A stretch of DNA of 45,768 nucleotides from a virus. Positions 3,595-45,768 of the stretch are shown piece after piece. The stretch is from positions 1-45,768 of IMG/VR virus record IMGVR_UViG_3300018426_000042. One strand, written 5' to 3'. Every line of letters begins with the position of its first letter. Positions within the stretch are counted from its first letter, which is position 1. Both the position numbers and the translations under genes were made by a program. Below the pieces are notes generated by a model. It did no database searches. It was not told where the DNA came from and saw only the letters and a list, made by a program, of their open reading frames with translations.

Positions 3595-3617
3595 AAGAGC
3601 CTCCAGTCTATTGCACT

Positions 3618-3646
3618 AGTATATAACGATTTTAGGATTTTGTCAA
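3618..3646 (-). promoter_or_regulatory. Sigma70-type promoter of the sugar-transferase operon
   Basis: On the minus strand a perfect -35 TTGACA (3646-3641) and a -10 TATACT (3623-3618) are separated by exactly 17 bases. This lies 24 bases upstream of the first ATG of the cluster and immediately after the stop codon of the preceding tail gene. Host-type promoters are typical of early phage genes, which would separate this cluster from the late structural genes upstream. Confidence 0.8.
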
Positions 3647-3648
3647 GA

Positions 3649-4887: not shown

Positions 4888-4895
4888 CTATTTAT
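4888..4895 (-). promoter_or_regulatory. Candidate T4-type late promoter box
   Basis: The minus strand reads CATAAATAG 28 bases upstream of the ATG at 4860, in a 47-base gap between two tail genes. T4-type late promoters consist only of a TATAAATA-like -10 element, and gp55 is encoded in this window. No -35 hexamer is seen. The call rests on the motif and its recurrence before other structural genes. Confidence 0.45.
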
Positions 4896-12175: not shown

Positions 12176-12183
12176 GTATTTAT
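12176..12183 (-). promoter_or_regulatory. Candidate T4-type late promoter box
   Basis: The minus strand reads GAATAAATACA, with ATAAATAC at 12183-12176, 18 bases upstream of the ATG at 12158 and overlapping the last codons of the giant gene. The spacing is shorter than for the other boxes, so this is one of the weaker candidates. Confidence 0.35.
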
Positions 12184-31000: not shown

Positions 31001-31561
31001 GTATTGCTCTGTAGGAATGCCTGCTACATTATCAGACTTTACTGGATTTCCTATTCCGTTATCAGGAGGAAGTGCAGCATTTAAAACTTGTGTAAATTGT
31101 TCAAACCAAGAGCTGCTGCTTGCATCGTTCCAATTAATTGTAATTCCTGATAAATTAGTTCCGGAACTGTCTATCAATGTTTCTGTTGTTTTGATAGAGT
31201 CAAACTTTAATAGTCCGTTTGCTGCTTGGTTTCTTTTTGGATTGTAAGATATAAGTCTAGCAAGACGTAGAACACTTTCTCTGCGCTCTGCTGTTTCTAA
31301 AAAGTTTTCTCTTGCATTAAGATCTGTTCTAAATGACAGATTTTGCCCAAGGAATGCAATCATGTCAATTAGTGCAAGATATTCTGAACTTTCAATGTAA
31401 TCGTTAAAATCTTCGGGATAATTTTCACGCAAATAATTAATCAAAGTTCTGCGTAAACTATCAAAGTCATAACTTTGAAAATCTGCATTTCTGTAAGATT
31501 GGTAAATTCTTTTCCAATCTTCTGTTACTAATAATCTGTTCTGTCTATCTGTAGATGACAT
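28061..31561 (-). CDS. 6: Baseplate wedge subunit gp6
   Basis: This 1166-residue protein has the gp6 N-terminus (DWKRIYQSYRNADFQSYDFD, then LINYLRENYPEDFNDYIESS and LALIDMIAFLGQNLSFRTDL), the typical helical start of T4-like gp6 and related baseplate J proteins. The middle has the conserved ITAEDYNVAPLGVSQDIIK segment of that family. It is nearly twice the length of T4 gp6 (about 660 residues), as in other marine T4-like phages. In T4, gp6 dimers form the inner ring that joins the wedges around the hub and change conformation when the sheath contracts. It lies directly downstream of gp25, its T4 partner. The C-terminal tail is an unusual serine run made by a 12-base tandem repeat. Confidence 0.9.
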   Translation of the reverse strand: MSSTDRQNRLLVTEDWKRIYQSYRNADFQSYDFDSLRRTLINYLRENYPEDFNDYIESSEYLALIDMIAFLGQNLSFRTDLNARENFLETAERRESVLRLARLISYNPKRNQAANGLLKFDSIKTTETLIDSSGTNLSGITINWNDASSSSWFEQFTQVLNAALPPDNGIGNPVKSDNVAGIPTEQYRLNALNTDIPRFKFSKTVEGSTVQFEVVSTDVQAGEILEEPPLPGNNPAFIFRDDGRGSGSSNTGFFMHFRQGALQTGDFSVSNPTPNQNIAIDVQNINNSDVWVYSIDSNGFESELWTKLDAVEGNNIIYNSLNKNIRNVYAVSTRVGDRVNLIFSDGVFGNLPAGGFRSYYRVSANRNITVGPAGMNNISIEIPYISRKNTNETLTITMSLKYTVTNAAQSESNASIKTNAPATYYTQNRMITAEDYNVAPLGVSQDIIKTKAVNRVSSGISRYLDLKDTTGKYSNTNLFGTDGVIYQQEFTERSDFTFVTQSDVEGIIYNKIQPLLKATNIKNFYWAKFPENIVTDLNASWTSVSTQTNADTGNLTDQDGVNLKVGQFTSNSLRLIESGTMLRFEPPEGYHFMLDSSNSIMEGNADHPNATTYKWVKVVTANGDGTGETNGIGDIILNDILPTSDNPNIKPILTQVKPKLATVLLDDLKTQIIDQTFAYNDYAIRYDDAARQWKLITADNINSTGAFSTGKAGDTSGQQLDASWLVYFKTNGETYTITYRNLRYVFESADEIKFYFDKSSKVFNPRTGKVLKDKIDVLSINTLPDGSGRPFTRDFTWSAVKEFRDSAGYRDTRKLEITFYDKDDDGVFDDPEMFEEIVNQEEYIFQKIYTTSDGVEDFKYFNNSNADIIKVTDESAVERTANNDGKIFYLTEEGIFKEFNSTANSLTTVSNYRAYIGRDGLKFNYLHVADSETRIDPSLSNIIDTFILSKNYDTQFRLYLANELASMPKPPSSDELYRQYGSKLNAIKSISDEIIYHPVKYKVLFGSKALPDLQVTFKVVKNPDLVLNDNDVKSRIIGYMNRFFSTENWDFGDTFFFQELSSYVMNSMSPDIVSFLIVPKQSDQSFGSLFQINSENNEIFINGATVKDIEIIDEITSTKLKASGKVVTSTIPTTVGVQSASVNTGATSSSSSSSSSSSSNSGGYSY
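28086..28121. repeat. Three tandem copies of a 12-base unit encoding poly-serine
   Basis: The unit gaactgctgctt occurs three times without a gap at 28086-28097, 28098-28109 and 28110-28121. Read on the minus strand it adds four residues of the C-terminal serine run of gp6 per copy. The number is in phase, so gain or loss of a unit would not break the frame. This suggests slippage-prone length variation at the gp6 tail. Confidence 0.9.
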
Positions 31562-31582: not shown

Positions 31583-31590
31583 ATATTTAT
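31583..31590 (-). promoter_or_regulatory. Candidate T4-type late promoter box before gp6
   Basis: The minus strand reads CGATAAATATTATAAC in the 51-base gap between gp25 and gp6, with ATAAATAT at 31590-31583, 22 bases from the gp6 ATG at 31561. It is among the closest matches here to TATAAATA, and gp6 heads the longest transcript segment of the block (gp6 plus the giant gene). Confidence 0.5.
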
Positions 31591-31612
31591 CGTATCGGAT
31601 AAAGTGCTACTA

Positions 31613-32056
31613 TTATACTAGGCCAGCTGCTTGGTCAAATCTAAAGCGTAGTGTTTCGGCAATACTATAAGGAACATATACAAGATCCGCTTCTATTTGT
31701 ATTCCTGATTCATAAGGTATTACATTTATAGTATTAACACTTACTCTAGGATCATAGTTTATGATTTCCGTAACATTTTGTATTATCGCTTCTTTTACAT
31801 CTTCTGTAAAAGGCTCAAATAATACATCCCAGATTATAGTACCAAATTCAGGGTCTGATATTTTCTCTCCTTGGCGTATGTGAAAATGATTTATGATATC
31901 TTGTTTTATAAGTTCAAGATCAAACAATGCATAAGAATCCCTATTAATGTCTACAGTAGAAAATCCTCTGTAAGACTTTCCTTGCGAACTAGTTTTAGGA
32001 ACCGCTGCATTTTTTACTGTAACTCTTTTGTAAAGATTTTTTTCTATTGTGCTCAT
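31613..32056 (-). CDS. 25: Baseplate wedge subunit gp25
   Basis: This 147-residue protein belongs to the GPW/gp25 family, the small conserved baseplate component of contractile systems (TssE in type VI secretion). The family core is clear: FDLELIKQDIINHFHIRQGE, then DPEFGTIIWDVLFEPFTED and YDPRVSVNTINVIP. T4 gp25 is 132 residues, so the length fits. It lies between gp5 and gp6, as expected, since gp25 and gp6 together make the core bundle of each wedge. The ATG at 32056 overlaps nothing. The 12-base gap upstream holds an AAGG ribosome-binding site. Confidence 0.93.
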   Translation of the reverse strand: MSTIEKNLYKRVTVKNAAVPKTSSQGKSYRGFSTVDINRDSYALFDLELIKQDIINHFHIRQGEKISDPEFGTIIWDVLFEPFTEDVKEAIIQNVTEIINYDPRVSVNTINVIPYESGIQIEADLVYVPYSIAETLRFRFDQAAGLV

Positions 32057-32068
32057 AACGTATTTACC

Positions 32069-34570
32069 TTATACAATTGCCGTGCCGCGCTTGATTGCAG
32101 CGGTTCCTAGTGCATAGTATTCATCACCTGTGGTACCGTAAGCATCTGCTTGTCCTCGTTTACCGTTACGCCAATTCTTCATAGCACTTGCACCCAACAA
32201 GTGCGATCCTGCTAACATGCCTGCAATAACTTCGTTACTATCTCCTGTTCTTACACCACCGTTTCTTTTTAAGTAAGATAAGTTTTTATTTGTGTAAGCA
32301 ATCATACCAATTTCTTGGCAGTTATTTTTATTATTCAGCCAGTCTTCTTTGTTGTTTACTCCGTTTTTACCGGTCCATGCATTTGGATTATCAAGTGTCG
32401 AATTCCTATTACTAGATCCTAAAATAATATAACCAGCCTCTTGAAGTGCAGCAGAACCAAATTGGTATTTTCCGGAAAATCCTATAGTGTTAACAACATC
32501 ATATTTGTTGCCGCTTTCTCTTTGTCCTATAGCACTCATATAGTTTGCTGTTTCTGCTTTGGTAAATCCATCAATTGTACCTGGAACATCATTCGGTCCT
32601 AATACCGGAGCAGTAAGTTTTCCTGGTCTTTGTAAACTACTGTCTTTAGTTCTGTCCGCACTAGGTGATTTAGGATCTCTTGAAGGTTGTGTAACAAATC
32701 CTCTAGCAGACTGATTCCCTGTACTAGATATTGCAGGATTTCCGGCAGCAGGAGGATTGTTAGCATTTTTCCTAAATGTGTCAGGAGTTTGAGCAGGTTG
32801 CCCGTTAATAATCTGTCCTGGACTCTCTCTATCTAATACTTCAGTTTTAAATGATTGTGGGTTTTGGTTTTCATGATGAGGCCAAGGTTCATGTTGTGGC
32901 GCTCTTGTTAGAATAGTGTTGTATGTTCCAGGATCTGGTATTCCTGGAGTTATTTGCGGTAATGTTATTTCTGGTAAAAGAACTACAGGCACAGGAACTT
33001 CAGCAGGGTCAGCAACTGTACCTTTTGTTGCATCAGCTGTTAACCCACTATTCCAATGTATTTCTCCAGCATCGCCTGTAAGAACTCCTGCAGGTTTTAA
33101 ATTTATATTAGTTGCTGCTTGCCAATAACCACTTTGTGCGGTTGTCATATGTATTGAGCCCTCAGCATCATGATGCATACTACTTTTTGATGTTACATTC
33201 CAAGTATCGTTAGTGCCTATTTTTATTGCTGCTGATGAAAACCAGTTTGATTCTGCATCTACATCTATATGTAAATTATCGCCAACTTTTAAATGTGTAG
33301 TTGTACCCGATTCTGTCTTAATCGAATCTCCAACTAGTGTTTGTAAACTATTTCCAACAGTAATTTTTCCTTCAGCACCTACATCTAAATTAAAATTATG
33401 TTTTGCTTCAAATTGTATCCTACCTGATTCAAGCTGTCTGCCGTCTGTGTTTGAACCATTAGAATACCTTGCACTAGCTTTCATGTTTATATTTCTGCCC
33501 GCTTCAACATTAAAATCTCTAAAAGCAGTTAAGTTAATATCAACTTCTGAATTTATACTAATGCTATCGTTTGCAAAAATATCAATTTTTCCGTCACTGG
33601 TCATTTCTAACCAAGCTGTTCCTCTACTATTACCAATATAAATTAAATCTTCTGAATTGTGTAAAAGTATTTGATGACCTGTTCTTGTACGCAAACGTAT
33701 AAGTTCATTATGTGGTATAGTTTCGTCGCCGCCTGCTTCGCCTGCTTCAGCATTTGCATAAAAAGGTGGAGCTTCTTCTGCATGACCTTTCCTTAATAGT
33801 TTATCATCGCCGTCGTCGAAAACAAGACTACTTCCGCCAAGACGACTTGCATAATATCCAACATTATGTTGCTCAGTACCTTGGGTCAGTGTAGGTGCGC
33901 CAGCTCTTTTATCTAAAGGACCCGGAGTACTAATACCAAAAACTGCACTCGGAACTTCTCGTCTAGCACTTGTAGTTGTAGTACCTCTTATTTCGTCTGC
34001 AATAAGCCCTTGTACTTCTAATACTTGTGTAAAATCTTTGTTATAAGGTTTATTAAATCTAGTAGGATCTTTTCCTGCACCTTCTTCTATACGCTTGTTA
34101 TATTCTCCTACAGGTAATTTAAATCCTTGTAAGTTACTAGGAGTAGCACCTGTGGTTAAGTTTGTGCTTGCCCTTCCATCAGGAACCATAAAATTCATAT
34201 TTTCGTCTTGTATACATCCGATCCAATAACCATACCTACTATTATCTTCTGTAAATATTACTAGAACCCTTGTTCCTACATCAGGCGGAACAGCCCAAAA
34301 TCCGTAACTTTTTTGTGTATATTCATATCCGTCATTTGCTGTAGTTCCGCCGGTTGACGTTACACCGTAAAAAGGTGACAAATATTTACAAGTAACTAAT
34401 TGCCCAGTTCTTTCTGGGTTATTACCCGATGTTGCTTTTAATAGTTCTACTTCTAATGTACCCATATTGAAAGGATCAAGATGATTTACAACAATTGCTT
34501 CATAAGGACCACCGGCTTTAGGTGGTCCTGCACTTACTACTGTTCTTGATAACGTGTTAGGTCTTGCCAT
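32069..34570 (-). CDS. 5: Baseplate hub/spike protein gp5 with C-terminal muralytic domain
   Basis: Three parts are visible in 833 residues. Residues about 22-130 form the gp5 OB-fold (EAIVVNHLDPFNMGTLEVEL, YGFWAVPPDVGTRVLVIFTE, YGYWIGC). Residues about 290-500 are a beta-helix needle like gp5C (HQILLHNSEDLIYIGNSRG; SISINSEVDINLTA). After a long Pro/Asn-rich linker, residues about 665-833 form a lysozyme- or lytic-transglycosylase-like domain: AIGQRESGNKYDVVN with a candidate catalytic E685, then FSGKYQFGSAALQEAG. The protein would puncture the outer membrane and cut peptidoglycan. In T4 the lysozyme sits between OB-fold and needle, whereas here it is at the C-terminal end. No cleavage site for maturation was recognised. 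Confidence 0.88.
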   Translation of the reverse strand: MARPNTLSRTVVSAGPPKAGGPYEAIVVNHLDPFNMGTLEVELLKATSGNNPERTGQLVTCKYLSPFYGVTSTGGTTANDGYEYTQKSYGFWAVPPDVGTRVLVIFTEDNSRYGYWIGCIQDENMNFMVPDGRASTNLTTGATPSNLQGFKLPVGEYNKRIEEGAGKDPTRFNKPYNKDFTQVLEVQGLIADEIRGTTTTSARREVPSAVFGISTPGPLDKRAGAPTLTQGTEQHNVGYYASRLGGSSLVFDDGDDKLLRKGHAEEAPPFYANAEAGEAGGDETIPHNELIRLRTRTGHQILLHNSEDLIYIGNSRGTAWLEMTSDGKIDIFANDSISINSEVDINLTAFRDFNVEAGRNINMKASARYSNGSNTDGRQLESGRIQFEAKHNFNLDVGAEGKITVGNSLQTLVGDSIKTESGTTTHLKVGDNLHIDVDAESNWFSSAAIKIGTNDTWNVTSKSSMHHDAEGSIHMTTAQSGYWQAATNINLKPAGVLTGDAGEIHWNSGLTADATKGTVADPAEVPVPVVLLPEITLPQITPGIPDPGTYNTILTRAPQHEPWPHHENQNPQSFKTEVLDRESPGQIINGQPAQTPDTFRKNANNPPAAGNPAISSTGNQSARGFVTQPSRDPKSPSADRTKDSSLQRPGKLTAPVLGPNDVPGTIDGFTKAETANYMSAIGQRESGNKYDVVNTIGFSGKYQFGSAALQEAGYIILGSSNRNSTLDNPNAWTGKNGVNNKEDWLNNKNNCQEIGMIAYTNKNLSYLKRNGGVRTGDSNEVIAGMLAGSHLLGASAMKNWRNGKRGQADAYGTTGDEYYALGTAAIKRGTAIV

Positions 34571-34572
34571 TA

Positions 34573-35274
34573 TTATAATCCGCCAAATGCATCTATGCTT
34601 ATATCATATTGTGTTAAAGGCTGTCCATCGGGTTTATGTGTTAGCCTATATTTTTTATCCCACTCTACTCTTTTTTCTCTTTCCTCTGACGTTAATCCTG
34701 TCGGTCTAGGGTCAACCGGCTCGTATGTCGGAGTATTAGGAGCAGGCGGTGGAACTGGTGTGTTGCGCTGATCTCGTCCTCTTGGATCGTAAGAATCAGG
34801 ATCTGCTTGTCCTTGTGGAGTATTTACATTTGCACCGCCTGCAATTACTCCTCTCTGGGCACTTAATGCTGCTGTAGCATTTGAAAGAGTATGAACTTTT
34901 TGCCCAGTTCTAAAATCAAACCTATCATCTAAAGGATTAGTTGCTATGTACGGTCTATTAGAAACTGTTTGTGTTCCTCCGTTCTGTGCAGAAGGTTGAT
35001 TCTGACTAGGTAAGGTTGTATTACTTTCAGTAGCCGGAGAAACTGTGTTTCGTTGGCCTCTGCCCCGTGGATCTTTAGCATCAGGATCTTCATAAGATGC
35101 TAAAGATTTATATCCGCCTCCTGTTGATTGATTAAATTCTCTTAATTTTTCATCAGAAGATAAATTTGAAACTTCTTGTGATCTGCGACGTTCTTCTGCA
35201 CGTTTACCAGCTGCTGTTCTTGCACTAGTTTGAGTATATCCACCTCCTCCAATGCCAAAATCATTAATTGCCAT
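34573..35274 (-). CDS. Pro/Gly/Asn-rich protein of unknown function in the baseplate operon
   Basis: This 233-residue low-complexity protein has no recognised family. It is rich in Asn, Gly, Gln and Pro and therefore probably extended or disordered. A 15-residue motif occurs twice: DPDAKDPRGRGQRNT at 63-77 and DPDSYDPRGRDQRNT at 158-172. The N-terminus is basic and helical (RTAAGKRAEERRRSQEV), and the C-terminus ends in YDISIDAFGGL, a likely docking peptide. It lies two bases from gp5 and nine from the hub peptidase gene, so all three are probably translated together. A linker or chaperone for the hub is possible but not shown. Confidence 0.65.
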   Translation of the reverse strand: MAINDFGIGGGGYTQTSARTAAGKRAEERRRSQEVSNLSSDEKLREFNQSTGGGYKSLASYEDPDAKDPRGRGQRNTVSPATESNTTLPSQNQPSAQNGGTQTVSNRPYIATNPLDDRFDFRTGQKVHTLSNATAALSAQRGVIAGGANVNTPQGQADPDSYDPRGRDQRNTPVPPPAPNTPTYEPVDPRPTGLTSEEREKRVEWDKKYRLTHKPDGQPLTQYDISIDAFGGL

Positions 35275-35283
35275 TTAAAACCC

Positions 35284-38200
35284 CTATGTTGGTATTTCGC
35301 CTCGACGGACAGTTAAAGTACCACCTTCGTTTGCTGCTGCGGAAAAATGCATAGCATCTTTAGAGCTTGTCCAATCGCCTCCCCAGCCAAGCCCGTACTT
35401 TGCAGCAAGTGCAGTCATTGCACTACCTGTACCGTTTAAAGGCATATCAGTAACTACTGCTGCACCTCTTCTAGTGATGTAGGGATTTGGGCCAGGGTTA
35501 ATATCTATTGCTACTCCGCCAGCATGCCAGCTTAGTGTGTTTGAATTGGAAATGTACCTGTAGTTATATCCGCCCAAACTTGTGATTTCATATCCAAAAT
35601 CTTTTTCAAGTTCGTCGATTAATCCTTGAAATTTCGGTGCCAAAACCGCAGCAACTTGTGTTCTAAGTCCTCTGATACTAGTTGTAATAGTAGCTAGATT
35701 TCCGCCTCCGGCACTTGGTTTTCCTTTAGGAGCTGTTGTTGTTGTTTTTCCAGTGGAGCCAGTTCTTTCTAAGGTTCTTTGTTGTCCGCCGCCGGATGCA
35801 GGTGGTGTAGAACTTCCTTGATTATTAGGCTGTCCTGCTGTACCACCAGTACCTTGGCCGCCGTCTCTGTTGCCATTCCACTGTTGTTTTTGGCTATCTC
35901 CTTCTCCAATAACTTCAGTATCTCCTGTTTCTGTATCATTTTGGCCTCTTCTTCTAAGTAATTTTAATGAACATTTAAATTGTCCTCTAGAAAAAGTATT
36001 AGTAACTTGTGTTACTTGGAATAATCCACTAAAAGGTTTTACAATTTTCGAAAACTGCATCTGACCGCCGACAACGTAATCTATAGGAGTTCTAAAATTC
36101 ACAACAATCAATACTTCTTCGTTTTGGTAATCTACTGTTCCGTCAGCATTTGTATTACGTTTGGCGCCGCTAGGAGGAGCATTATAGTTGCCCATGCCGC
36201 TAGTAGGTATCCAATAAGGGTCTCCCCAAATTTCCATCTCTGCTTGAACCATATCAGTATCACCATTAATAAGTGTATTATGAAATGCTTCAGCTATTGC
36301 ACGTTTTGTACCTAATGACGCTGATACACCCAAACCGTTTGGCACTACTGATTTTTGATATCCGTCTCTTGTAGGAGCCTTTACTTCTGACAGTTCACCA
36401 TTACTTGTTCCTCCAACGCCAGGTGCTGATACTTCTGTTCCTGGAGGTGTAGGAGATGCTGTTGTTTCTCCAGAAACACCTGTTCTGCGTGACGAGTTTC
36501 CTTGCATAAGATCTGCATACAAGTTCTGGTAAAATGCGCCTTTAAATTCGATCTGGAAATCAAGTACATCTTCATTTTTACCAGTATAAAAATAGTTGTA
36601 CTCTTTTACTGCTTGTGCTTTTAATTGTTCAGTATTTGCTGGCACACGACCCGGACCTAAAAACTTAGCTTCATCTGCCCAAAAAGGCACAACACTGTAA
36701 ACATAGATTTTTGGCTTTTTACCTGTTTTAAGTTCTGTGCCCGTGTCACTGTTTACAAAAACTTGTGTTTCAACTTTAAACCATTTTTTAAGACCGTTTT
36801 CTGCAGGTCTTTCTGCTAAAGCTCTACCGTAATCGCTATTGAGTATAACATCTTCAATAATACCTACAACGTTTGTTCCTTGTGTGTACTGTCCTATACG
36901 TTCCAAATCCTTTGTATCAACTTTATTTCTTTGTACAAATCTTATAGGTCCGTCTTGATATACTGCTTTATCTGCTTCACCCATAACTCTGGTGCCGCCG
37001 TCATTACTATTTTCAGTTAAAACTGCTCGGCCAATTTCGTTTACATTTGTTTCTGCGTATGCTTTAAGTAAATCATAAACAGTATTTGAAGGCGCTTTTG
37101 TTGAACCGTTTGGAGTGCCGTCTGCTGCACCTGGTAGATTAGATCTCTGTAAAGTTCTTGTAACTTCAAAAGGATTTGACGTAGCAGAGTTGTTGTTTAC
37201 CCTTGCTCCTTCAACTACTTTTGTAGCACCTTGTTTGTCAATAGGAAACATAATAATATATCTGTCTTCGCTAGGTGCAACATTTTTATCTTCTCTTGTT
37301 TCTTTCCTTTTGTTTAAAACATTTGTTAAACTACGTGTTCCTTTTTGTAGATATTCATCTACTTTGTTTCCGGCAATAGAAACGTCAACAGGAACTTTTG
37401 CAACTTCATCTGCTAGTGCTTGTTCATTGTAAGGAATAGCTTCTACAGAATACCTGCTACCTTGTCCATCTACTTGGAATTCGATATTTGTTAATTTTAT
37501 AGGAATATATTTTGGAGTAATAGATTGAGCACTATTTAAAGGTAAGAATTTAGAGTCTTCGTCAAACCCTAAAAATTCAATTTTAAGAACATAAGGTGCT
37601 TCAATATAGTTTGTGTATGTTGCTTGTAATGCAGCGATTTGTAAAGATTCTAAAAGCTGCCCCATGCTATAAGGTTCGATAATTGTAAAGGCTAATTTTG
37701 TACCTGTTGCTGTACCTGTTTTACTGTTAGGCGCTATCAGAGCTTCTAACTCTAAATCTTCTAGATAGTATTCGCCAGTTAACCCGTAATTTTTTTCAGC
37801 AAAGGTTGTTACTCTATTTTGTAAGTTGCCGCCGCCTGTGGTACATATAACATTAGTTAAACCGCTTGATCTAAAACTACTTTCTGGAGATGCAAGTTCT
37901 GCATCACTTACACACCCTAAGGTAATTTTATAGTTATATGTTGCATAGTGTCTCAACGGATTTAAAAGTCTACCGTTAGCATCTACAGATATGCTACTGT
38001 ATCGTCTGTCAGCTCTGCCTCCAGCACCACCAAAATTTAAACTTAATGCTTCATCTATGCCTGAAAAGAAACTATCAGCTTTAGAAATAGCACTTTGAAA
38101 CTTTCCTATTTCTCCAGTAACTGCATTTAATGACTGAGGAAGAACTTTAATAGGAGATGCTGCGCCTTCAAAGTCTTTAATTAGTGGTAACTTTCCGATT

Positions 38201-38487
38201 AAATTTTGTTCAAAATCTAATTTGCCAGCTGTACTTAATTGTTCTAGTTTTCTTGTAAACGTAGAAGTAACATTACTAGCATTTGCACTAACACCCGAAA
38301 TGCCTTTAACAGCACTTTGTAAGTTTTGGTTAAATTCTCCAAAATTAAGATTTGTAAGCTGCCTGACTCCTCCAGATAATTTAGTGTTTAGCTGATTAAG
38401 TTTTTGTCCACTCAAAGCATTATTAAGAGAACTAGTTGCAGTGCTAACATTATTTGAAAAAGTAGTTAAAAAACTTCCGAAAGCCAT
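35284..38487 (-). CDS. Baseplate hub protein with C-terminal M15-type peptidase domain
   Basis: This 1067-residue protein begins with coiled, Ala/Asn/Ser-rich helices, then a body shared with marine T4-like hub proteins (LRHYATYNYKITLGCVSDAE; FTIIEPYSMGQLLESLQIAA). From about residue 960 it carries a D-Ala-D-Ala carboxypeptidase / L-Ala-D-Glu peptidase (M15) fold: S-W-H-A-G-G-V-A-I-D with H988 and D995, then G-W-G-G-D-W with D1038, then A-M-H-F with H1047. These match the zinc ligands and catalytic acid of the family. Its place between gp53 and gp5 suggests the gp27-like hub position. It would cut peptide cross-links while gp5 cuts glycan. A Gly/Ser/Thr-rich linker separates body and enzyme. 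Confidence 0.8.
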   Translation of the reverse strand: MAFGSFLTTFSNNVSTATSSLNNALSGQKLNQLNTKLSGGVRQLTNLNFGEFNQNLQSAVKGISGVSANASNVTSTFTRKLEQLSTAGKLDFEQNLIGKLPLIKDFEGAASPIKVLPQSLNAVTGEIGKFQSAISKADSFFSGIDEALSLNFGGAGGRADRRYSSISVDANGRLLNPLRHYATYNYKITLGCVSDAELASPESSFRSSGLTNVICTTGGGNLQNRVTTFAEKNYGLTGEYYLEDLELEALIAPNSKTGTATGTKLAFTIIEPYSMGQLLESLQIAALQATYTNYIEAPYVLKIEFLGFDEDSKFLPLNSAQSITPKYIPIKLTNIEFQVDGQGSRYSVEAIPYNEQALADEVAKVPVDVSIAGNKVDEYLQKGTRSLTNVLNKRKETREDKNVAPSEDRYIIMFPIDKQGATKVVEGARVNNNSATSNPFEVTRTLQRSNLPGAADGTPNGSTKAPSNTVYDLLKAYAETNVNEIGRAVLTENSNDGGTRVMGEADKAVYQDGPIRFVQRNKVDTKDLERIGQYTQGTNVVGIIEDVILNSDYGRALAERPAENGLKKWFKVETQVFVNSDTGTELKTGKKPKIYVYSVVPFWADEAKFLGPGRVPANTEQLKAQAVKEYNYFYTGKNEDVLDFQIEFKGAFYQNLYADLMQGNSSRRTGVSGETTASPTPPGTEVSAPGVGGTSNGELSEVKAPTRDGYQKSVVPNGLGVSASLGTKRAIAEAFHNTLINGDTDMVQAEMEIWGDPYWIPTSGMGNYNAPPSGAKRNTNADGTVDYQNEEVLIVVNFRTPIDYVVGGQMQFSKIVKPFSGLFQVTQVTNTFSRGQFKCSLKLLRRRGQNDTETGDTEVIGEGDSQKQQWNGNRDGGQGTGGTAGQPNNQGSSTPPASGGGQQRTLERTGSTGKTTTTAPKGKPSAGGGNLATITTSIRGLRTQVAAVLAPKFQGLIDELEKDFGYEITSLGGYNYRYISNSNTLSWHAGGVAIDINPGPNPYITRRGAAVVTDMPLNGTGSAMTALAAKYGLGWGGDWTSSKDAMHFSAAANEGGTLTVRRGEIPT

Positions 38488-38778
38488 TTATGCTCCTAAT
38501 AACGGTACAAGATTACTTTTCTTTGGTAGGTATATTTTTGTACCTGCAGAAAAATCGTAAACAGGATCTCTAATAATATCCATATTTCTTTGTGCAAAAA
38601 TCCACCACAAGTCTTTTGTGCCGTATAGGTCATAACTTAACAAGTCCGGCCTGTGATGATAGTTCGGTGTAATCTCAAAAACAACATCATTATCTTCCGC
38701 AGGAATTGGGCGAATATTCAAGATATCTAAATATCCCGAAGTTGTGACATTTGTTTTACCATAAGGGCTCATACTCAT
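38488..38778 (-). CDS. 53: Baseplate wedge subunit gp53
   Basis: This 96-residue protein has the gp53 pattern of T4-like phages: ITPNYHHRPDLLSYDLYGTK, then DLWWIFAQRN, then DPVYDFSAGTKIYLPKKS. The C-terminal half resembles a LysM-like fold. T4 gp53 is about 196 residues, and the short form is usual in marine relatives. It completes the wedge by joining neighbouring wedges around the hub. The ATG (38778-38776) overlaps the stop of the gp48-like gene by one base. A second in-frame ATG lies two codons later (38772) and could also be used. Confidence 0.9.
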   Translation of the reverse strand: MSMSPYGKTNVTTSGYLDILNIRPIPAEDNDVVFEITPNYHHRPDLLSYDLYGTKDLWWIFAQRNMDIIRDPVYDFSAGTKIYLPKKSNLVPLLGA

Positions 38779-39758
38779 TAGATAAATCCTTCTGTTCCGC
38801 TAGAGGTGTATTCGCCGTTAGCAAATTTCCTTAGATTAAACTGAGCTTGTGTTGATCTGCTGTACTGCGGTAACAATGTAACAGTAATTGTACTTTGTAC
38901 AGGTACATAGTTCACTTGTTCTTGAACTTTTACTTGTATATAATCAACTTCTGCAGGTAAGTCTGTAGTAAAGTTTCCTACTAGTACAGGAACATTGTTT
39001 AATACATGTCTACCGTAGCCGTTTAATCTTGCAACAAGAGGTGGATTGCCTGCACTTAGGCCGTCACCGTAAAACATTTTTGTCATTGTTCTTAAATAGT
39101 GTAATACTGCAATCCAGTAAAACGCATCTTCTTCAGACTCTGCAAAAAATTCTCCAGTAACTGTAATACTATCAACTTGGCTATTTTCATAAGCATTATA
39201 AGGATAGTTTACGTGTGTAGGATGAATTTGTGAATAGTTAGCAGAGTTACCAAAAAGTATTGTAGGAGTAAAAGGAAACACTAGTTTTTTACTTGTAGCA
39301 TTAAATGCTTGAAATAAAGGACTACCTGAAATTGCATAAGGGACTGATAAACTAACACGCCAGTCGTTTGTTGCTTCATCTATACCTCCAGACGAAACAT
39401 TTTGCGATATAATACTTGCCATTGCTGCATTTGGTGCAAAAGGTTCTGCACCTGGTGTAACACCTTGTCTATATACACTACCCAACCTTGTTCTACTTCC
39501 AAATCCAGAAGAGAATGTAGCACCTAAAGCACTAAAATCTTGTGCAACACTGCCTGCTTGGTTAAGTACTGCTAGTCCACTAGATAGACTAGGATTTGAA
39601 CCAAAATTCTTTGCAGCAGAACCAAGTGAATTTAGTCCTCCTAATGCACTATTAGCACGAGTCTGTAACGAACTAAAGGTGTTTTGGAATTGGTTTACTT
39701 TACTAGACACACTGCTTATTGCACTTGTTAGTTGGTTAAAGCCGCTGAATAATCCCAT
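38778..39758 (-). CDS. 48: Baseplate tail-tube cap protein gp48-like
   Basis: This 326-residue protein starts at the ATG at 39758 (MGLFSGFNQLTSAI), which has AGGAG ten bases upstream. An earlier in-frame ATG (39779) lacks a good site and would add seven residues. The N-terminal third is an Ala/Ser/Asn-rich helical region. The C-terminal part has tail-tube-like beta segments: DSITVTGEFFAESEEDAFYW, then GNFTTDLPAEVDYI and STITVTLLPQYSRS. This pattern fits the gp48/gp54 family that caps the hub and starts tube polymerisation. Only one such gene is present here and it could correspond to gp54 instead. I prefer gp48 because of its position beside gp53. Confidence 0.75.
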   Translation of the reverse strand: MGLFSGFNQLTSAISSVSSKVNQFQNTFSSLQTRANSALGGLNSLGSAAKNFGSNPSLSSGLAVLNQAGSVAQDFSALGATFSSGFGSRTRLGSVYRQGVTPGAEPFAPNAAMASIISQNVSSGGIDEATNDWRVSLSVPYAISGSPLFQAFNATSKKLVFPFTPTILFGNSANYSQIHPTHVNYPYNAYENSQVDSITVTGEFFAESEEDAFYWIAVLHYLRTMTKMFYGDGLSAGNPPLVARLNGYGRHVLNNVPVLVGNFTTDLPAEVDYIQVKVQEQVNYVPVQSTITVTLLPQYSRSTQAQFNLRKFANGEYTSSGTEGFI

Positions 39759-39778
39759 TTTTATTATTCTCCTATACA

Positions 39779-39786
39779 TTATTTAG
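39779..39786 (-). promoter_or_regulatory. Candidate late promoter box of the gp48-gp53-hub operon
   Basis: The minus strand reads CTAAATAATG, with CTAAATAA at 39786-39779, 21 bases upstream of the gp48 ATG. It directly abuts the -35 hexamer of the divergent gp55 promoter (39787), so the two elements occupy adjacent bases. It differs from TATAAATA at its first bases, which makes it a weaker match. Confidence 0.4.
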
Positions 39787-39815
39787 TTGACAAAATTATC
39801 TACGTATATTATAAT
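39787..39815 (+). promoter_or_regulatory. Perfect-consensus sigma70 promoter for the late sigma gene gp55
   Basis: TTGACA at 39787-39792 and TATAAT at 39810-39815 match the bacterial sigma70 consensus in all twelve bases with a 17-base spacer. The -10 box ends 24 bases before the TTG start of gp55. This is the strongest promoter signal in the window and means that the host polymerase can make gp55 without any phage factor. Confidence 0.9.
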
Positions 39816-39839
39816 AAATATATTATTAGGAGAACACTT

Positions 39840-40667
39840 TTGCGAAAGAAGAATTATTTAAACAACAAAGACATTTTAAAAGAGATACACAGATCAAAAA
39901 ATACATACAATAGCTATGTAGAAAAAGATTATGCACTGTATGATATAATTTTACCAAGTATAGATAAGATCAATATTAGAACTATTGCCGAAGCAAAACG
40001 TAACAAGGCAAAACGCCTATCTACAGAAGATTACGAAACCCGTAAGGAAGCAGGACAAAAAATTAAACAAGCAGATTGTGAAGTAGATTACAAAAAAATT
40101 ACCAAAGAAGAACTAATCTTTCGTATTATGACTTTCGATCATATTCCAGACGAGCCGGGACGTAAAAAGAATCCAAAGACAGTAGCAGACACTAAAACTA
40201 AGCTAAACTTTCCACCTTTCCAACACTATAAATTTAACGAAAATGACGAATTAGTGTGTGTAGGTAAAAGTCACTGGATAGGCGGCATGGAAAACGGGTA
40301 TTTTTCTAAAAATCACGGAAAAGCTACAGATAAACTTGCACTTATGTGGATGAAACTGTGTGATAGATATGCTACACGTGGCAACGTTCGCGGTTATACC
40401 TATAACGACGAAATGCGGGGACAAGCAATTCTTCAACTTGCACAGATTGGATTGCAATTTGATGAATCAAAATCTCAAAATCCTTTTGCTTATTACACTG
40501 CTGCTGTTACTAACAGTTTTGTCCGTGTTATCAACATTGAAAAACGCAATCAAAACATTCGAGACGATATTTTAGAAATGAATGATTTAAATCCTAGTTA
40601 CACACGTCAACACGCAGGCGAATGGGAAGCGGCTGTAAAAAGAGAAAGAGAATTGTCAAAAAAATAG
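39840..40667 (+). CDS. 55: Late transcription sigma factor gp55, enlarged
   Basis: This 275-residue protein keeps both ends of the T4 gp55 design. The N-terminal YLNNKDILKEIHRSK matches T4 YVNNKELLQAI. The sigma region-2-like part is at about residues 170-245: Y-T-Y-N-D-E-M-R-G-Q-A-I-L, then FDESKSQNPFAYYTAAVTNSF and IEKRNQ. Between them lies an insert of about 130 residues of unknown role (KKITKEELIFRIMTFDHIPD; GKSHWIGGMENGYFSKNHG). T4 gp55 has 185 residues and ends in a sliding-clamp-binding SLDFLYE peptide. This protein ends in AAVKRERELSKK and lacks it. The start is TTG, with AGGAG seven bases before. It would direct RNA polymerase to the ATAAATA boxes of the structural operons. Confidence 0.85.
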   Translation: MRKKNYLNNKDILKEIHRSKNTYNSYVEKDYALYDIILPSIDKINIRTIAEAKRNKAKRLSTEDYETRKEAGQKIKQADCEVDYKKITKEELIFRIMTFDHIPDEPGRKKNPKTVADTKTKLNFPPFQHYKFNENDELVCVGKSHWIGGMENGYFSKNHGKATDKLALMWMKLCDRYATRGNVRGYTYNDEMRGQAILQLAQIGLQFDESKSQNPFAYYTAAVTNSFVRVINIEKRNQNIRDDILEMNDLNPSYTRQHAGEWEAAVKRERELSKK

Positions 40668-40696
40668 TTGACAGGTGTGCATTTTTAGTGTATATT
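40668..40696 (+). promoter_or_regulatory. Sigma70-type promoter before gp47
   Basis: TTGACA at 40668-40673 begins right after the gp55 stop codon, and TATATT at 40691-40696 follows with a 17-base spacer. TATAAC at 40696-40701 is an alternative -10. It lies 26 bases before the TTG start of gp47 and would drive the gp47-gp46-hemC operon in early or middle infection. Confidence 0.8.
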
Positions 40697-40722
40697 ATAA
40701 CAAGCGAATGGAGTAAATTAGT

Positions 40723-41736
40723 TTGTTTAAAAAAGCTGCTGTCTTTACGGACATCCACTTTGGCTTGAAAAGTAACAGCCGAGTACACAATCAAGATTGT
40801 GAAGAGTTTATAGACTGGTTCATAAAAGTTGCCAAGGAAAATAACTGCGAAACATGTTTGTTTTGCGGTGACTGGCATCACAATAGAAACAGCCTTAATC
40901 TTACTACAATGGATGCAACTATCCGTAGCATGGAAAAATTAGGACAAGCATTTGACAAAGTTTTAATGTTTGTTGGTAATCACGATTTGTACTACAAGGA
41001 CAAACGTGATGTAAGTTCTACTGAATTTGCAAAGCATATTCCAGGAATAACTGTTGTAGACAAAATTGTCGAAGAAGACGATGTTGCACTTGTTCCTTGG
41101 CTTGTAGGCGATGAGTGGAAAAATATAGGAAAATTAAAAGCAAAGTATTTGTTCGGACACTTTGAGCTTCCGAGCTTTTACATGAACGCAATGGTGCAGA
41201 TGCCAGATCACGGTGATCTAAAAGCAGAACATTTTGTTAATCAAGATTTTGTGTTTTCAGGACATTTTCACAAGAGACAAAAACAAGGCAAAATTCATTA
41301 CATCGGTAATGCATTTCCACACAACTATGCAGATGCTTGGGATGATGACCGTGGTATGATGATCCTTGATAAAGAAAACAATGCAGAACCAGAATACATC
41401 AACTGGCCAAATTGTCCAAAATACAGAACTGTAAAACTATCACAACTTATTGATGAAACTAGTACACTTATAAAAGATAAAATGTATCTTAGAGTAACAC
41501 TAGATTTGCCAATAAGTTATGAAGAAGCAAACTTTATCAAAGAAACATACATCAGAGATTACGGTGTAAGAGAGCTTACACTTATTCCTCAAAAACAAAT
41601 GGAAGAGATAACAACAGATCTAGACATTGCACAATTTGAAAGTGTTGATCAAATTGTTGCAAGCGAAATAGCGGAACTAGATACTGCAAACTACAACAAA
41701 AATATGTTGTTAGATATCTACAATGGTTTAGAATGA
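40723..41736 (+). CDS. 47: Recombination endonuclease subunit gp47 (SbcD/Mre11 type)
   Basis: This 337-residue calcineurin-like phosphoesterase has all phosphoesterase motifs in order: T-D-I-H (D10, H12), C-G-D-W-H-H (D50), V-G-N-H-D (N86, H87, D88), F-G-H-F and S-G-H-F-H. T4 gp47 is 339 residues, so it is complete. With gp46 it forms the Mre11/Rad50-like complex that resects DNA ends and is needed for recombination-dependent replication of T4. The start is a TTG with GGAG nine bases upstream. The last codons overlap the gp46 start (ATGA). A role in host DNA breakdown is also known in T4. Here it is presumed to act on the phage genome. Confidence 0.95.
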   Translation: MFKKAAVFTDIHFGLKSNSRVHNQDCEEFIDWFIKVAKENNCETCLFCGDWHHNRNSLNLTTMDATIRSMEKLGQAFDKVLMFVGNHDLYYKDKRDVSSTEFAKHIPGITVVDKIVEEDDVALVPWLVGDEWKNIGKLKAKYLFGHFELPSFYMNAMVQMPDHGDLKAEHFVNQDFVFSGHFHKRQKQGKIHYIGNAFPHNYADAWDDDRGMMILDKENNAEPEYINWPNCPKYRTVKLSQLIDETSTLIKDKMYLRVTLDLPISYEEANFIKETYIRDYGVRELTLIPQKQMEEITTDLDIAQFESVDQIVASEIAELDTANYNKNMLLDIYNGLE

Positions 41737-43505
41737 TTAGAATCAAAGATTTAACAGTTAAAAACTTTATGAGTGTGGGTAATCAAACTCAAGCGGTTGA
41801 TTTCAATCGAGAGCAACTTACACTCGTGCTTGGTGAAAACTTAGACCAAGGAGGTGACGACACCGGATCCAGAAACGGTACAGGCAAAACTACGATAATC
41901 AATGCATTATCTTACGCACTGTACGGCCAAGCACTGACTAACATTAAGAGGAATAATCTTATTAACAAGACAAATTCCAAAGGAATGTTAGTCACCCTAC
42001 ACTTTGAGAAGAACGGCGTTGACTATCGTATTGAGCGAGGAAGATCACCTAATGTTCTTAAATTTTATATCAACGATCAAGAACAAGAAATGATCGACGA
42101 AAGCCAAGGTGATAGTAGAAAAACACAAGAATCAATACACGACTTACTAGGCATGAGTCATGATATGTTTAAGCACATTGTTGCACTTAATACATATTCA
42201 GAGCCGTTCTTGTCAATGAGAGCAAATGATCAAAGAGCAATTATTGAACAACTTTTAGGTATTACAATACTAACTGAAAAAGCAGATTTGCTCAAAGAAC
42301 AAACTAGGCAGACTAAAGATTCAATCACACAAGAAACAATGAAGATTGAAGCAATACAAGCTGCAAACACAAAAATTGAATCTAGCATAGAAACTCTTGC
42401 AAGCAGACAACGTGCTTGGATTGCTAAAAAAGAACAAGATTGTGTCAAAATAGAAAAAGCAATAAAAGAGCTTGAAGAAGTTGATATTGAAAAAGAACTA
42501 GATTCACACGAAAAATTACAAAATTGGAATGAATTAAACACAGCAATTACGGCTCTTAACAAAGAAAAAAGCACACTTGAGAGCGCACTATTACGTGCTA
42601 CTAAGAGTGTTGAAAAGGCAGAAAAAGACATCGCAAATCTTGAAGATGCTACTTGTTATACTTGCGGACAAGCACTGCATGATGACAAAAAAGCAGAAAT
42701 TGAGTTAAGAAAAACAAAAGAATTAAACGATGCAATAGCTTATCAGACAGAAGTTGCAGACAAGTTACAAGATGTACTTTTAGGCTTAGATGAAATAGGC
42801 GATATTAACGGACGTCCTAATACATTTTACGAAACTGCTAAAGAAGCATATGAACACAGACAAAATGTAGACAGTTTAAAACAAGCTCTTAAAACAAAGC
42901 AAGATGAAGACGATCCTTATGAACAACAGATTGCCGATTTAAAAACATCAGCACTACAAGAAATTGATTGGACTCCAGTAAATCAGCTTACTGATTATAA
43001 AGAGCATCAAGAATTTTTGTTAAAATTATTAACTAACAAAGATAGCTTTATTCGTAAAAAGATTATTGATCAAAATCTTGCGTATTTAAATAATCGCTTA
43101 ACATACTATCTTGATAAACTAGGCTTACCTCATCAAGTATTGTTCCAAAACGATTTAAATGTCGAAATTACACAATTAGGACAAGATTTAGATTTTGATA
43201 ACTTATCAAGAGGTGAACGCAATAGACTTATCTTAGGATTGAGCTTTGCATTCCGTGATGTTTGGGAAAGTTTGTATCAAGGTGTAAATCTATTGTTTAT
43301 TGACGAACTTATCGACAGCGGCATGGACGCTGCTGGTGTAGAAGGCTCATTAGGTATTCTTAAGAAAATGGGTAGAGAACGTGATAAAAATATCTACTTA
43401 ATTAGTCATAAGGATGAACTTGTCGGTAGGGTTAATCATGTACTTAAAGTTGTTAAAGAAAACGGCTTTACTAGCTATGAAAATGATATAGAAGTTGTAG
43501 AATGA
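41733..43505 (+). CDS. 46: Recombination endonuclease subunit gp46 (SbcC/Rad50 type)
   Basis: This 590-residue protein is close to T4 gp46 in length (560). It contains a Walker A motif G-S-R-N-G-T-G-K-T (45-53), a long coiled coil interrupted by the zinc hook C-Y-T-C (C308, C311), the ABC signature L-S-R-G-E-R-N (491-497) and a Walker B L-L-F-I-D-E (D524, E525). Two such subunits zip at the hook and drive ATP-dependent movement of gp47 on DNA. The gene begins inside gp47 and ends in an ATGA overlap with hemC, so the three are translated as a unit. No residue known to be essential is missing. Confidence 0.95.
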   Translation: MIRIKDLTVKNFMSVGNQTQAVDFNREQLTLVLGENLDQGGDDTGSRNGTGKTTIINALSYALYGQALTNIKRNNLINKTNSKGMLVTLHFEKNGVDYRIERGRSPNVLKFYINDQEQEMIDESQGDSRKTQESIHDLLGMSHDMFKHIVALNTYSEPFLSMRANDQRAIIEQLLGITILTEKADLLKEQTRQTKDSITQETMKIEAIQAANTKIESSIETLASRQRAWIAKKEQDCVKIEKAIKELEEVDIEKELDSHEKLQNWNELNTAITALNKEKSTLESALLRATKSVEKAEKDIANLEDATCYTCGQALHDDKKAEIELRKTKELNDAIAYQTEVADKLQDVLLGLDEIGDINGRPNTFYETAKEAYEHRQNVDSLKQALKTKQDEDDPYEQQIADLKTSALQEIDWTPVNQLTDYKEHQEFLLKLLTNKDSFIRKKIIDQNLAYLNNRLTYYLDKLGLPHQVLFQNDLNVEITQLGQDLDFDNLSRGERNRLILGLSFAFRDVWESLYQGVNLLFIDELIDSGMDAAGVEGSLGILKKMGRERDKNIYLISHKDELVGRVNHVLKVVKENGFTSYENDIEVVE

Positions 43506-44254
43506 AGTTAAAGATTGGTGTTAGAGGAAGTAAGTTAGCACTAGCATATGCAGGTCGTGTATGCAAAGAACTTCCTTGCGACACTGAAATTGTTGTTGTT
43601 AAAACTACAGGCGACTTAAATCCTGATACTCCTATACACGAAATAGGAGGTAAAGGAGTATTTTGTTCTAAACTTGAAGAAGCACTATTAAACAACACAA
43701 TTGATATTGCTGTACACAGCCTAAAAGATATGCCAGGTGATGTTGAACATCCTGATTTAGAAATTAGTGCAGTACTAGAACGCAATAGTCCTCATGATGT
43801 AATTATAGGCAACATATTTGACGGTTTTGTATTAGGCACTAGTAGTCCAAGACGTACAGCACAACTTGAAAGTTTATACGGTAATCTAAATGTTAAGATT
43901 AAACCTATACGCGGTAACATAGACACAAGATTAAAAAAACTTGACAACGGTGAATACGATGCTATCGTATTAGCAGAAGCTGGATTACAAGCACTAGGCA
44001 TAGACAGAGGTTGGGTAAGACTTCCTATGCATCATTGTACACCAGCAGTAGGACAAGGCGTGATAGCATTACAAACAGTAAAAGGTAGTGGTGCTAGTAT
44101 AGTAGCAAAAAAGATTAACCACGATCTTACATATAGACAAGCAATGATGGAACGAGCAATACTAAAAGGAATCGGAGGAGATTGCACAACGAAGATTGCA
44201 GCATATGCAAGTGATGACAATCCCATTAAACTGAGAGCAGTATACTATGGATAA
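43502..44254 (+). CDS. hemC: Phage-encoded hydroxymethylbilane synthase (porphobilinogen deaminase), C-terminally short
   Basis: This 250-residue protein matches HemC end to end apart from its tail: IGVRGSKLALAYA (R8, S10), TTGD, GGKGVF, AVHSLKDMP (K75, D76), TSSPRRTAQL (R117, R118), IRGNIDTRL (R137, R143), AEAGLQALG, AVGQGVIAL and GGDCTTKIAAYA. D76 corresponds to catalytic Asp84 of E. coli and C228 to Cys242, which binds the dipyrromethane cofactor. HemC polymerises four porphobilinogen units to hydroxymethylbilane, the linear precursor of all tetrapyrroles. E. coli HemC has about 71 residues after the cofactor cysteine. Here only 22 remain, so domain 3 is truncated. The start overlaps the gp46 stop. 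Activity is likely from the conserved residues but unproven. Confidence 0.93.
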   Translation: MKLKIGVRGSKLALAYAGRVCKELPCDTEIVVVKTTGDLNPDTPIHEIGGKGVFCSKLEEALLNNTIDIAVHSLKDMPGDVEHPDLEISAVLERNSPHDVIIGNIFDGFVLGTSSPRRTAQLESLYGNLNVKIKPIRGNIDTRLKKLDNGEYDAIVLAEAGLQALGIDRGWVRLPMHHCTPAVGQGVIALQTVKGSGASIVAKKINHDLTYRQAMMERAILKGIGGDCTTKIAAYASDDNPIKLRAVYYG

Positions 44255-44444
44255 TGACGACACACATGATAAATTAGCTCAAGCATATCTTGAATATTTT
44301 AAAGCTAGTGAATTATTTGAAACACGTAACAGTGTACGCACACATCGTTATGTTCGTAAATGTTTACGAGACATTCGTAGTTTAGCAAAAGAACGCATGG
44401 AAGAAGTACACGAAAAGTATTTAGATAAGAAAAATAATGTTTAG
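44247..44444 (+). CDS. Small hypothetical protein following hemC
   Basis: This 65-residue, highly charged, helical protein (KLAQAYLEYFKASELFE; RHRYVRKCLRDIRSLAKERM-like core) belongs to no family I recognise. It overlaps hemC by 8 bases and the next gene by 8 bases, which strongly suggests it is translated. Its alternating charge suits a helical hairpin that binds a partner protein or nucleic acid. A link to HemC is possible from coupling but not shown. Confidence 0.65.
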   Translation: MDNDDTHDKLAQAYLEYFKASELFETRNSVRTHRYVRKCLRDIRSLAKERMEEVHEKYLDKKNNV

Positions 44445-45156
44445 TATTTTTAAAAAGAAAAGCAAAATACATATTGATTGTTTTACTAATTTTAAAGGTA
44501 TTACAACACTATTTCCTATTGAGCCTGCAGACAAGTTTGTTCCTAATTGGTTTAAAAATCTTCCAAGTACAGCAGAATCTGCTACAGGTGCAACTGTAGG
44601 AACAGTGAAAATGTGTCCTGGTATAACTGAAACATTTAAAACTGGAATTGTAATTCCAGTTTGGTGCGATCTTTTTGTTGATTTTTCAAATAACAAAGTA
44701 AGGACAGAACCTGCAGAAATGGCAGATCAACATCCTAGCTGGCAATGGGGCAATAATCAAGTTTTTAAAGAATTTCATCATTTAAAAATTGGATCACCTT
44801 GGAGATTTAAAGAAAAAACAGGTGCAAAATTTATGATGACTAATACGTTTTGGAATAATCCTTCAATAGATTATATTGTTCCAAACGGAATGATAGAATT
44901 TAAGTATCAAACTACAACAAATATTAATATTTGGATACCAAAAGGAGGATTTTCTCCAAAAAAATCTTTCACACTTGTAGCAGGAACACCTTTAGTACAA
45001 ATTGTTCCACTTGAAGATAAAGAAATTGTAATTCATATGCACGAAGTCGGTGATGATGAATATTTTGGAGACGAATTAGACTATATTTTTACACAATCAG
45101 GCATGTATTATAAGCGCAAAAAAATATTAACCAAAAGAGAGGCACAAAAACGTTAG
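44437..45156 (+). CDS. Hypothetical protein of the hemC-linked operon
   Basis: This 239-residue protein has a basic N-terminus (MFSIFKKKSKIHIDCF), a P-A-D-K-F-V-P-N-W-F-K-N-L-P segment that looks like a family signature, and a beta-rich remainder with cupin-like strands (FKYQTTTNINIWIPKGG; VAGTPLVQIVPL; IVIHMHEVGDDEY). Two His in IVIHMHEV could be metal ligands, but there is no full cupin motif. It has no signal peptide and no membrane segment. It overlaps the 65-residue protein by 8 bases. I do not recognise a function. The cupin comparison is a visual impression only. Confidence 0.65.
   Translation: MFSIFKKKSKIHIDCFTNFKGITTLFPIEPADKFVPNWFKNLPSTAESATGATVGTVKMCPGITETFKTGIVIPVWCDLFVDFSNNKVRTEPAEMADQHPSWQWGNNQVFKEFHHLKIGSPWRFKEKTGAKFMMTNTFWNNPSIDYIVPNGMIEFKYQTTTNINIWIPKGGFSPKKSFTLVAGTPLVQIVPLEDKEIVIHMHEVGDDEYFGDELDYIFTQSGMYYKRKKILTKREAQKR
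44639..44662. repeat. 11-base perfect inverted repeat inside a coding region
   Basis: AAACTGGAATT (44639-44649) and AATTCCAGTTT (44652-44662) are exact reverse complements separated by two bases. It lies in the coding sequence of the 239-residue protein and encodes a TGIVIPV segment. As DNA it could extrude or bind a dimeric protein. As RNA it would form a strong hairpin in the message. No T-run follows. Confidence 0.9.
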
Positions 45157-45173
45157 GCAATGTAAGTACACTC

Positions 45174-45623
45174 ATGCAGTGGACTTATGAAGGCAAACCA
45201 ATTGACATAATACCAGACGAGTATGAAGGATTTGTTTATCTCATAACCAATCTAAAGACTGGGCAAAAATACGTAGGCAAGAAACTAGCAAAGTTTAAAA
45301 CCACAAAGCCACCACTCAAAGGCAAAAAGAACAAACGCAGAGGCTACAAAGAAAGCGATTGGAAAGACTATTGGGGATCATCTGATAGGCTTAACGCTGA
45401 TGTTGAAGCACTAGGCCCAGACAACTTCACAAGAGAAATACTATACCTATGCAAAGGCAGGGGCGAAATGTCCTATCTAGAGGCTAAAGAGCAGTTTGAC
45501 CGCCGTGTATTAGAGACGGATGAGTATTACAATGGAATTATTAATGTTAGAGTTGGCGGCTCAGACAAACTAAAACAAGCTCTATTAGAACACACTATCA
45601 AGGCAAAACAATCCAACACTTAA
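45174..45623 (+). CDS. GIY-YIG-like putative endonuclease
   Basis: This 149-residue protein has a GIY-YIG-type N-terminus: G-F-V-Y-L-I-T-N (19-26) then K-Y-V-G-K-K (32-37) in place of GIY and YIG. It continues with Y-W-G-S-S-D-R-L, F-T-R-E-I-L, an E in YLEAKEQF and YYNGIIN near the C-terminus, the block order of free-standing phage Seg-type and related nucleases. A basic stretch (KKNKRR) lies after the YVG strand. The ATG at 45174 has no strong ribosome-binding site. Such genes often act as homing endonucleases next to their target. Here 145 bases of possibly structured, non-coding sequence follow it. The family assignment is moderate, the homing role inferred. Confidence 0.7.
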   Translation: MQWTYEGKPIDIIPDEYEGFVYLITNLKTGQKYVGKKLAKFKTTKPPLKGKKNKRRGYKESDWKDYWGSSDRLNADVEALGPDNFTREILYLCKGRGEMSYLEAKEQFDRRVLETDEYYNGIINVRVGGSDKLKQALLEHTIKAKQSNT

Positions 45624-45631
45624 GGTTGGCG

Positions 45632-45754
45632 GGCCAGTTTGAAAATACCGCTGTGGAAAAAGTTTCCGTATAGGAACACACGTAACATGCTGAGCGGCAT
45701 CCGGTAGTAGGGTGTTTGATTGGCATAGATGGAATGTTGGCTGTCGAAAAACTG
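45632..45754 (+). ncRNA. Candidate structured RNA downstream of the GIY-YIG gene
   Basis: This non-coding stretch contains several compatible pairings. CAGTTT (45635-45640) pairs with AAACTG (45749-45754). CCGCT (45648-45652) pairs with AGCGG (45693-45697). An arm is formed by TGTG/CACA (52-55/77-80 of the 45600s) and TTCC/GGAA (45664-45667/45673-45676). Directly after AGCGG comes a CATCC/GGGTG hairpin (45698-45702/45710-45714). GGCCA (45632-45636) can alternatively pair with TGGCT (45738-45742). The strand cannot be fixed from pairing, but plus matches the flanking genes. No tRNA, tmRNA, known riboswitch or group I intron core was recognised. Confidence 0.3.
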
Positions 45755-45768
45755 CAAAGTACATAAAA

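Follow-up and report, generated by a model that had tools for sequence, protein, structure and literature searches.

The DNA analysed here, IMG/VR record IMGVR_UViG_3300018426_000042 (45,768 nucleotides in full; hereafter the window), carries T4-superfamily genes, with a tail and baseplate cluster on the minus strand and homologues of gp55, gp47 and gp46 on the plus strand. The two divergent gene sets are separated by 81 bases (39759-39839). The features of this region, together with those of a comparison promoter, are as follows.

28061-31561, minus strand: gp6-like baseplate wedge gene
31584-31590, minus strand: comparison late box of the gp6-like gene
31600-31617, minus strand: comparison upstream element (UE) of the gp6-like promoter, in the same register and with no sigma70 hexamers (profile score 14.0, not an independent score since the gp6-like family belongs to the training set)
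38488-38778, minus strand: baseplate wedge subunit gene, gp53-like (phrog_7145)
38778-39758, minus strand: gp48-like gene, so named from its position, which opens the late operon (PHROG: virion structural protein)
39774 +/-2, minus strand: predicted late transcription start
39780-39786, minus strand: late box CTAAATA of the baseplate (gp48/gp53-like) operon, from the relatives' columns and motif enrichment before genes
39787-39792, plus strand: -35 hexamer TTGACA of the gp55 promoter, from sequence and the relatives' alignment
39796-39813, minus strand: UE of the late promoter, placed inside the sigma70 spacer and extending into the -10, with the core TACGTAG at 39800-39806
39810-39815, plus strand: -10 hexamer TATAAT of the gp55 promoter, from sequence and the relatives' alignment
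39822 +/-2, plus strand: predicted gp55 transcription start, from the position of the -10
39840 (start) to 40667 (end), plus strand: gp55, late sigma factor, 275 aa, TTG start
40668-40696, plus strand: second sigma70-type promoter, TTGACA-17-TATATT, between gp55 and gp47, its spacer unlike the UE

The ATG at 39779 given for the gp48-like gene in the list of open reading frames is probably not its true start, which is placed instead at 39758 because relatives lack the former ATG and an AGGAG precedes the latter. Elsewhere on the minus strand, a single open reading frame of 5,293 codons occupies 12180-28061, and a sigma70-type promoter (TTGACA-17-TATACT, 3595-3650) lies amid the late cluster before a 117-aa open reading frame (3241-3594).

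The assignment of gp55 as a T4-type late sigma factor, on which the original prediction relied, is upheld by matches to phrog_12791, to phrog_234 (E 3e-21) and to T4 gp55 itself (7d7c, E 3e-8; profile match to 7d7c_F, E 3.1e-8). A structure model (pLDDT 87) likewise finds 7d7c_F as its best match (Z 14.1, rmsd 3.3, 119 residues aligned). Residues 131-237 align with residues 8-116 of T4 gp55, and the protein has some 125 extra N-terminal residues relative to its T4 counterpart, a part on which the structure search was uninformative.

The perfect TTGACA-17-TATAAT promoter predicted to read gp55 is borne out at 39787-39815, with both hexamers and a spacer within the usual 16-18 bases; it is the sole 12/12 consensus match among 42 promoter-like sites in 32000-45768, and an exact TTGAC-N18-TATAAT occurs once in the whole record, at gp55. 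TTGAC is present in 69/69 distinct relatives, a count that holds by construction as the loci were anchored on this motif, and the last base of the -35 (39792) is A in 41 and T in 28 of them. Conservation of the spacer goes well beyond what a sigma70 promoter demands, and the idea that it reflects a sigma70 requirement was rejected because other sigma70 spacers in the same records differ. An antisense sigma70 promoter arising from the palindromic ATTATAAT was dropped as well, many relatives having GTTTATAAT in its place.

On the opposite strand, each column of the late box is shared by 66 to 69 of the 69 distinct relatives, and the neighbouring column 39779 is free (T 34, G 23, C 9, A 3). The box had been drawn as eight bases, 39786-39779, touching the -35 hexamer; the adjacency stands, the unconserved eighth base does not, and 39780-39786 constitutes the fixed box. 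An 8-base frame of the T4 kind would include 39787 and so give a one-base overlap of box and -35. In T4, the late box lies at -13 to -6 relative to the start, the rule from which the start at 39774 is predicted. The arrangement of a TAAATA-type box one turn before a start, ahead of structural genes, is that of T4-type late promoters, where the box lies about one helical turn upstream (described in the available text of PMC2988020 and PMC7892883). TAAATA is depleted in the window (32 copies, 89 expected) and stands within 60 bases upstream of 6 of the 19 minus-strand gene starts there, and 98 of the 153 ATAAATA copies in six records fall outside gene bodies, intergenic DNA making up 31,452 of their 688,529 bases. 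As judged from sequence, both promoters look real, divergent and overlapping, as had been proposed.

The UE spans approximately -39 to -22 of the late promoter, centred near -30, and reads ATTATATACGYASTTWAT on the late strand, with a G+C-containing, partly palindromic core. A profile of the spacer recovered 17 sites of at least 12 bits in six records, four of them at gp55 itself, against a mean of 2.2 and a maximum of 6 for profiles with shuffled columns; spacer-like sites lie near late boxes elsewhere, before genes without sigma70 hexamers. Around 674 late boxes, gp55-type boxes having been removed, 22 of 45 TACGYAS sites lie at exactly -20, with no more than 2 at any other position; they precede the gp6-like baseplate wedge gene (19, all one orthologous gene), tail tube (2) and baseplate hub (1) genes. 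The gp6-like promoter carries UE and box, with the sigma70 promoter absent, in 33 distinct sequences. A cross-trained profile, built from the gp6-like baseplate gene alone (29 distinct sequences), scored best at the exact register in 77/90 gp55 blocks and within one base of it in 86/90, and rejected 15 other sigma70 spacers (scores -32 to -7). Across six records, 13 of the 110 late promoters scored at least 9, the next best being 4.2; the 13 comprise gp48-type (5), gp6-like (6, the training family) and tail tube (2) promoters, and the gp48-type promoter of G003 lies outside the 110. The UE as a feature of every late promoter was accordingly rejected. These comparisons demonstrate, at the level of motifs, that UE and box together make up a late-promoter unit also used at other tail genes, and because the pair recurs there with no sigma70 promoter, two promoters appear to be dovetailed before gp55. 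The contact in the earlier picture of touching promoters is real, but the UE inside the spacer had been missed, and "interlocked" describes the arrangement better. Its location also offers an alternative reason for the fixed spacing.

On the plus strand the four elements follow one another as late box (reversed), -35, UE (reversed) and -10, and close relatives keep this interlock in 92 of 97 distinct upstream regions: a pattern matched 90, and L040 and L046, whose -10 reads TATACT, were added by eye. The predicted conservation of the shared arrangement is thereby confirmed. The close-relative set was selected by best tblastn hit; L287 and L288 fall in a sister lineage in a 51-row tree built from the window plus 50 of 250 loci, giving 92 of 95 for the tree clade, in which the exceptions are L041, L297 and L320. 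L079, which has no upstream sequence, was dropped from the counts. A protein search yielded 80 viral-contig relatives, 77 with an anchored upstream region and 69 of these distinct (L006, L030 and L079, with upstream sequence absent or too short, are not in the 69-locus alignment), among which the conserved block spans 39780-39816, with sharp edges on both sides and A/T-only columns at 39792-39795. Mean pairwise identity across interlocked loci (3000 pairs) is 0.85 for the box, 0.94 for TTGAC, 0.72 for the UE and 0.98 for the -10, compared with 0.34 and 0.37 for the flanks and 0.43 for four-fold sites of gp55. A DNA-pattern scan of viral contigs gave at least 120 stretches; among the 80 matches listed, which were checked, gp55 comes directly next in 76 of the 77 that extend 60 or more bases downstream, and a baseplate gene lies on the opposite side in 76 of 80. 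Of the other four, three offer fewer than 200 bases there, and the fourth, L134, lacks both genes. The protein search and the pattern scan share contigs and are not fully independent. A chance origin of the arrangement was rejected, both by its conservation and by the gp55 adjacency of the pattern matches.

Natural variants exemplify other configurations. In L041, nested by the tree inside the interlocked clade, box and UE stay together, the sigma70 hexamers are absent there and a sigma70 promoter with an unrelated spacer lies 56 bases away. Seven close loci have no G between box and -35, and six (L291, L293, L298, L303, L304 and L323) keep box, spacer and -10 with a weak -35, TTGCAT or TTGCTT. 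The sister lineage L283-L288 (6 loci) is interleaved in another phase, in the order -35, late box, -10, UE. Agrobacterium phage Atu_ph07 (L082, ~2910-2935), whose gp55 is only 44% identical, keeps TATTTAGTTGACAAATTAACTAC, its box abutting TTGAC, but lacks a -10 at a distance of 16-18 bases; the GTCAA stretch may thus contribute to the late promoter directly. Farther afield, the seven named jumbo phages examined all share the divergent order of genes and have a late box ahead of gp55, situated 2-4 bases from the gp55 promoter in RaK2 and GAP32. The late box is present in 64/64 distinct loci of the L246 group, with TTGAC 21-55 bases from the box start in 60/64 when searched within 60 bases, and in 41/41 of the L244 group, with TTGAC within 60 bases in none; the 41 include a few loci of the alternative phase (L283-L286). 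The gap between box and gp55 promoter is 11 to about 85 bases in the PA5oct-type phage, SCTP-2, Phosso and the L246 group, so tight overlap is not general to gp55 systems.

The system shares with T4 a gp55-family sigma factor and a TAAATA-type -10 box before structural genes. In the available text of PMC2988020 and PMC7892883, T4 late promoters lack any upstream or -35 element, the structure study finds the -35 position unconserved, and gp33 reads no DNA. Most of the 110 late promoters scored here fit that description, and the UE-bearing subset departs from it with an element at about -39 to -22; moreover, one late promoter is interlocked with the early promoter of gp55 itself. The UE is the most novel part of the finding because these T4 accounts, as available, describe late promoters without one. 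T4 middle promoters also carry a phage element near -30 beside a -10 element, a MotA box (TGCTTtA) 12 bp from the sigma70 -10 (available text of PMC2988021), whereas the UE (TACGCACTTWA) precedes a late box and its consensus has no TGCTT. In jumbo phages CBB and GAP32, RpoD-like and ATAAATA promoters were predicted by motif search, with a gp55-like gene just 3' of an RpoD-like variant promoter; the available text of PMC5259590 mentions neither late-box overlap nor an upstream element. Divergent overlapping promoters serve as a switch in plasmid pLS20, in a study whose title names DNA looping (PMC4207663, available in part), but here the promoters are of two sigma classes and one makes the sigma factor of the other. 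A literature search found, in the text available, no earlier report of this overlap or of such an upstream element. As T4 late promoters have no upstream element and gp33 reads no DNA, something else must read the UE here, the candidates being the extra N-terminal part of gp55 or another protein. T4-type late promoters depend on gp33 and the gp45 clamp; models for these two proteins (PF16805, PF09116) matched in 0/7 records, with controls likewise silent.

RNA polymerase covers some 70-80 bp of promoter DNA. With predicted starts only about 48 bp apart (39774 minus, 39822 plus), the two promoters would need the same DNA and admit one polymerase per template, and this geometry supports the predicted blocking of one promoter by polymerase at the other. 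A dovetailed, mutually exclusive promoter pair acting as an early-to-late switch, with gp55 shutting off its own synthesis, is therefore a moderately probable reading, in which the exclusion follows from the geometry and the starts, the timing and the feedback are inferred. Early in infection, host polymerase with its main sigma factor would transcribe gp55-gp47-gp46 and cover the whole late promoter. As gp55 accumulates, gp55-polymerase, perhaps assisted by an extra UE-reading factor, would open the late promoter toward the baseplate operon, covering both hexamers and the spacer of the gp55 promoter and thereby stopping gp55 synthesis on that template. More tentatively, UE plus box may define a second late-promoter class, bipartite and exclusive to tail and baseplate genes, with a domain or factor dedicated to reading it, and the dovetailed copy would make tail commitment and sigma-gene shut-off one event; the restriction to such genes derives from six records, the flanks of other loci and four gene families. 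If these readings are correct, an early-to-late switch would reside in one 38-bp piece of DNA that interleaves promoters of two sigma classes, and T4-type late transcription would carry an extra element setting tail genes apart from other late genes, in a large and widespread group of uncultured tailed phages.

A serious rival, albeit a less probable one, holds that both promoters are used and that nothing is regulated by their overlap. With the -35 straddled by UE and box, no insertion or deletion separates the promoters without breaking one, and the register would be frozen by accident. The topology that forces this (UE between -35 and -10, box outside), the compact intergenic region and the escape of L041 only with a separate sigma70 promoter all suit such an account. 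Yet the second interleaving phase in the sister lineage suggests that overlap is favoured, common ancestry being possible, and the six loci with TTGCAT or TTGCTT keep the overlap regardless of a weak -35; together these lean toward selection for overlap, short of proof. That TATTTAG, the box read on the gp55 strand, is mere A+T-rich upstream sequence of the gp55 promoter with no late start is highly improbable. It does touch the -35, and A+T-rich upstream sequence aids many promoters, but box and UE stay paired in L041 away from the sigma70 promoter, the 38-bp pattern occurs almost exclusively before gp55 among the matches listed, and the box precedes the ribosome site and ATG of the opposite gene.

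Also rather doubtful is a reading in which a separate DNA-binding protein occupies the UE, represses gp55 from within the spacer and activates tail late promoters, giving an operator-type switch instead of competition between polymerases. Its centre near -30, where MotA binds T4 middle promoters, its partly palindromic core and its presence at tail and baseplate genes only would accord with this, but no candidate protein was found, MotA models giving no match in the records searched (controls were likewise silent), and the extra N-terminal residues of gp55 could read the UE themselves. The dovetailed pair with gp55 self-shutoff remains the preferred reading.

Several further motifs accompany these promoters. 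A near-perfect palindrome, ATATCTACGAAGTAGATAT, lies upstream of the late box at 83997 in G001, 96214 in G002, 92744 in G003 and 58041 in G005 (records within L212, L219, L228 and L238). A second late-box context, with TACGC, TGCGCAT or similar directly 5' of ATAAATA, occurs at 4895 in the window and at G001 43564, G002 20322, G003 91036 and G004 69708. L247, a contig binned with a Flavobacteriaceae genome, has two late boxes upstream of gp55, one a single base from TTGACA. In L244, L249-L273 and related loci, many gp55 leaders share an inverted repeat, GACC-TGTTTGT-GGTC, that is conserved and may act as an operator in the form of an RNA hairpin or as a binding site for a protein; the L244-type loci with this repeat have no TTGAC promoter after the late box.
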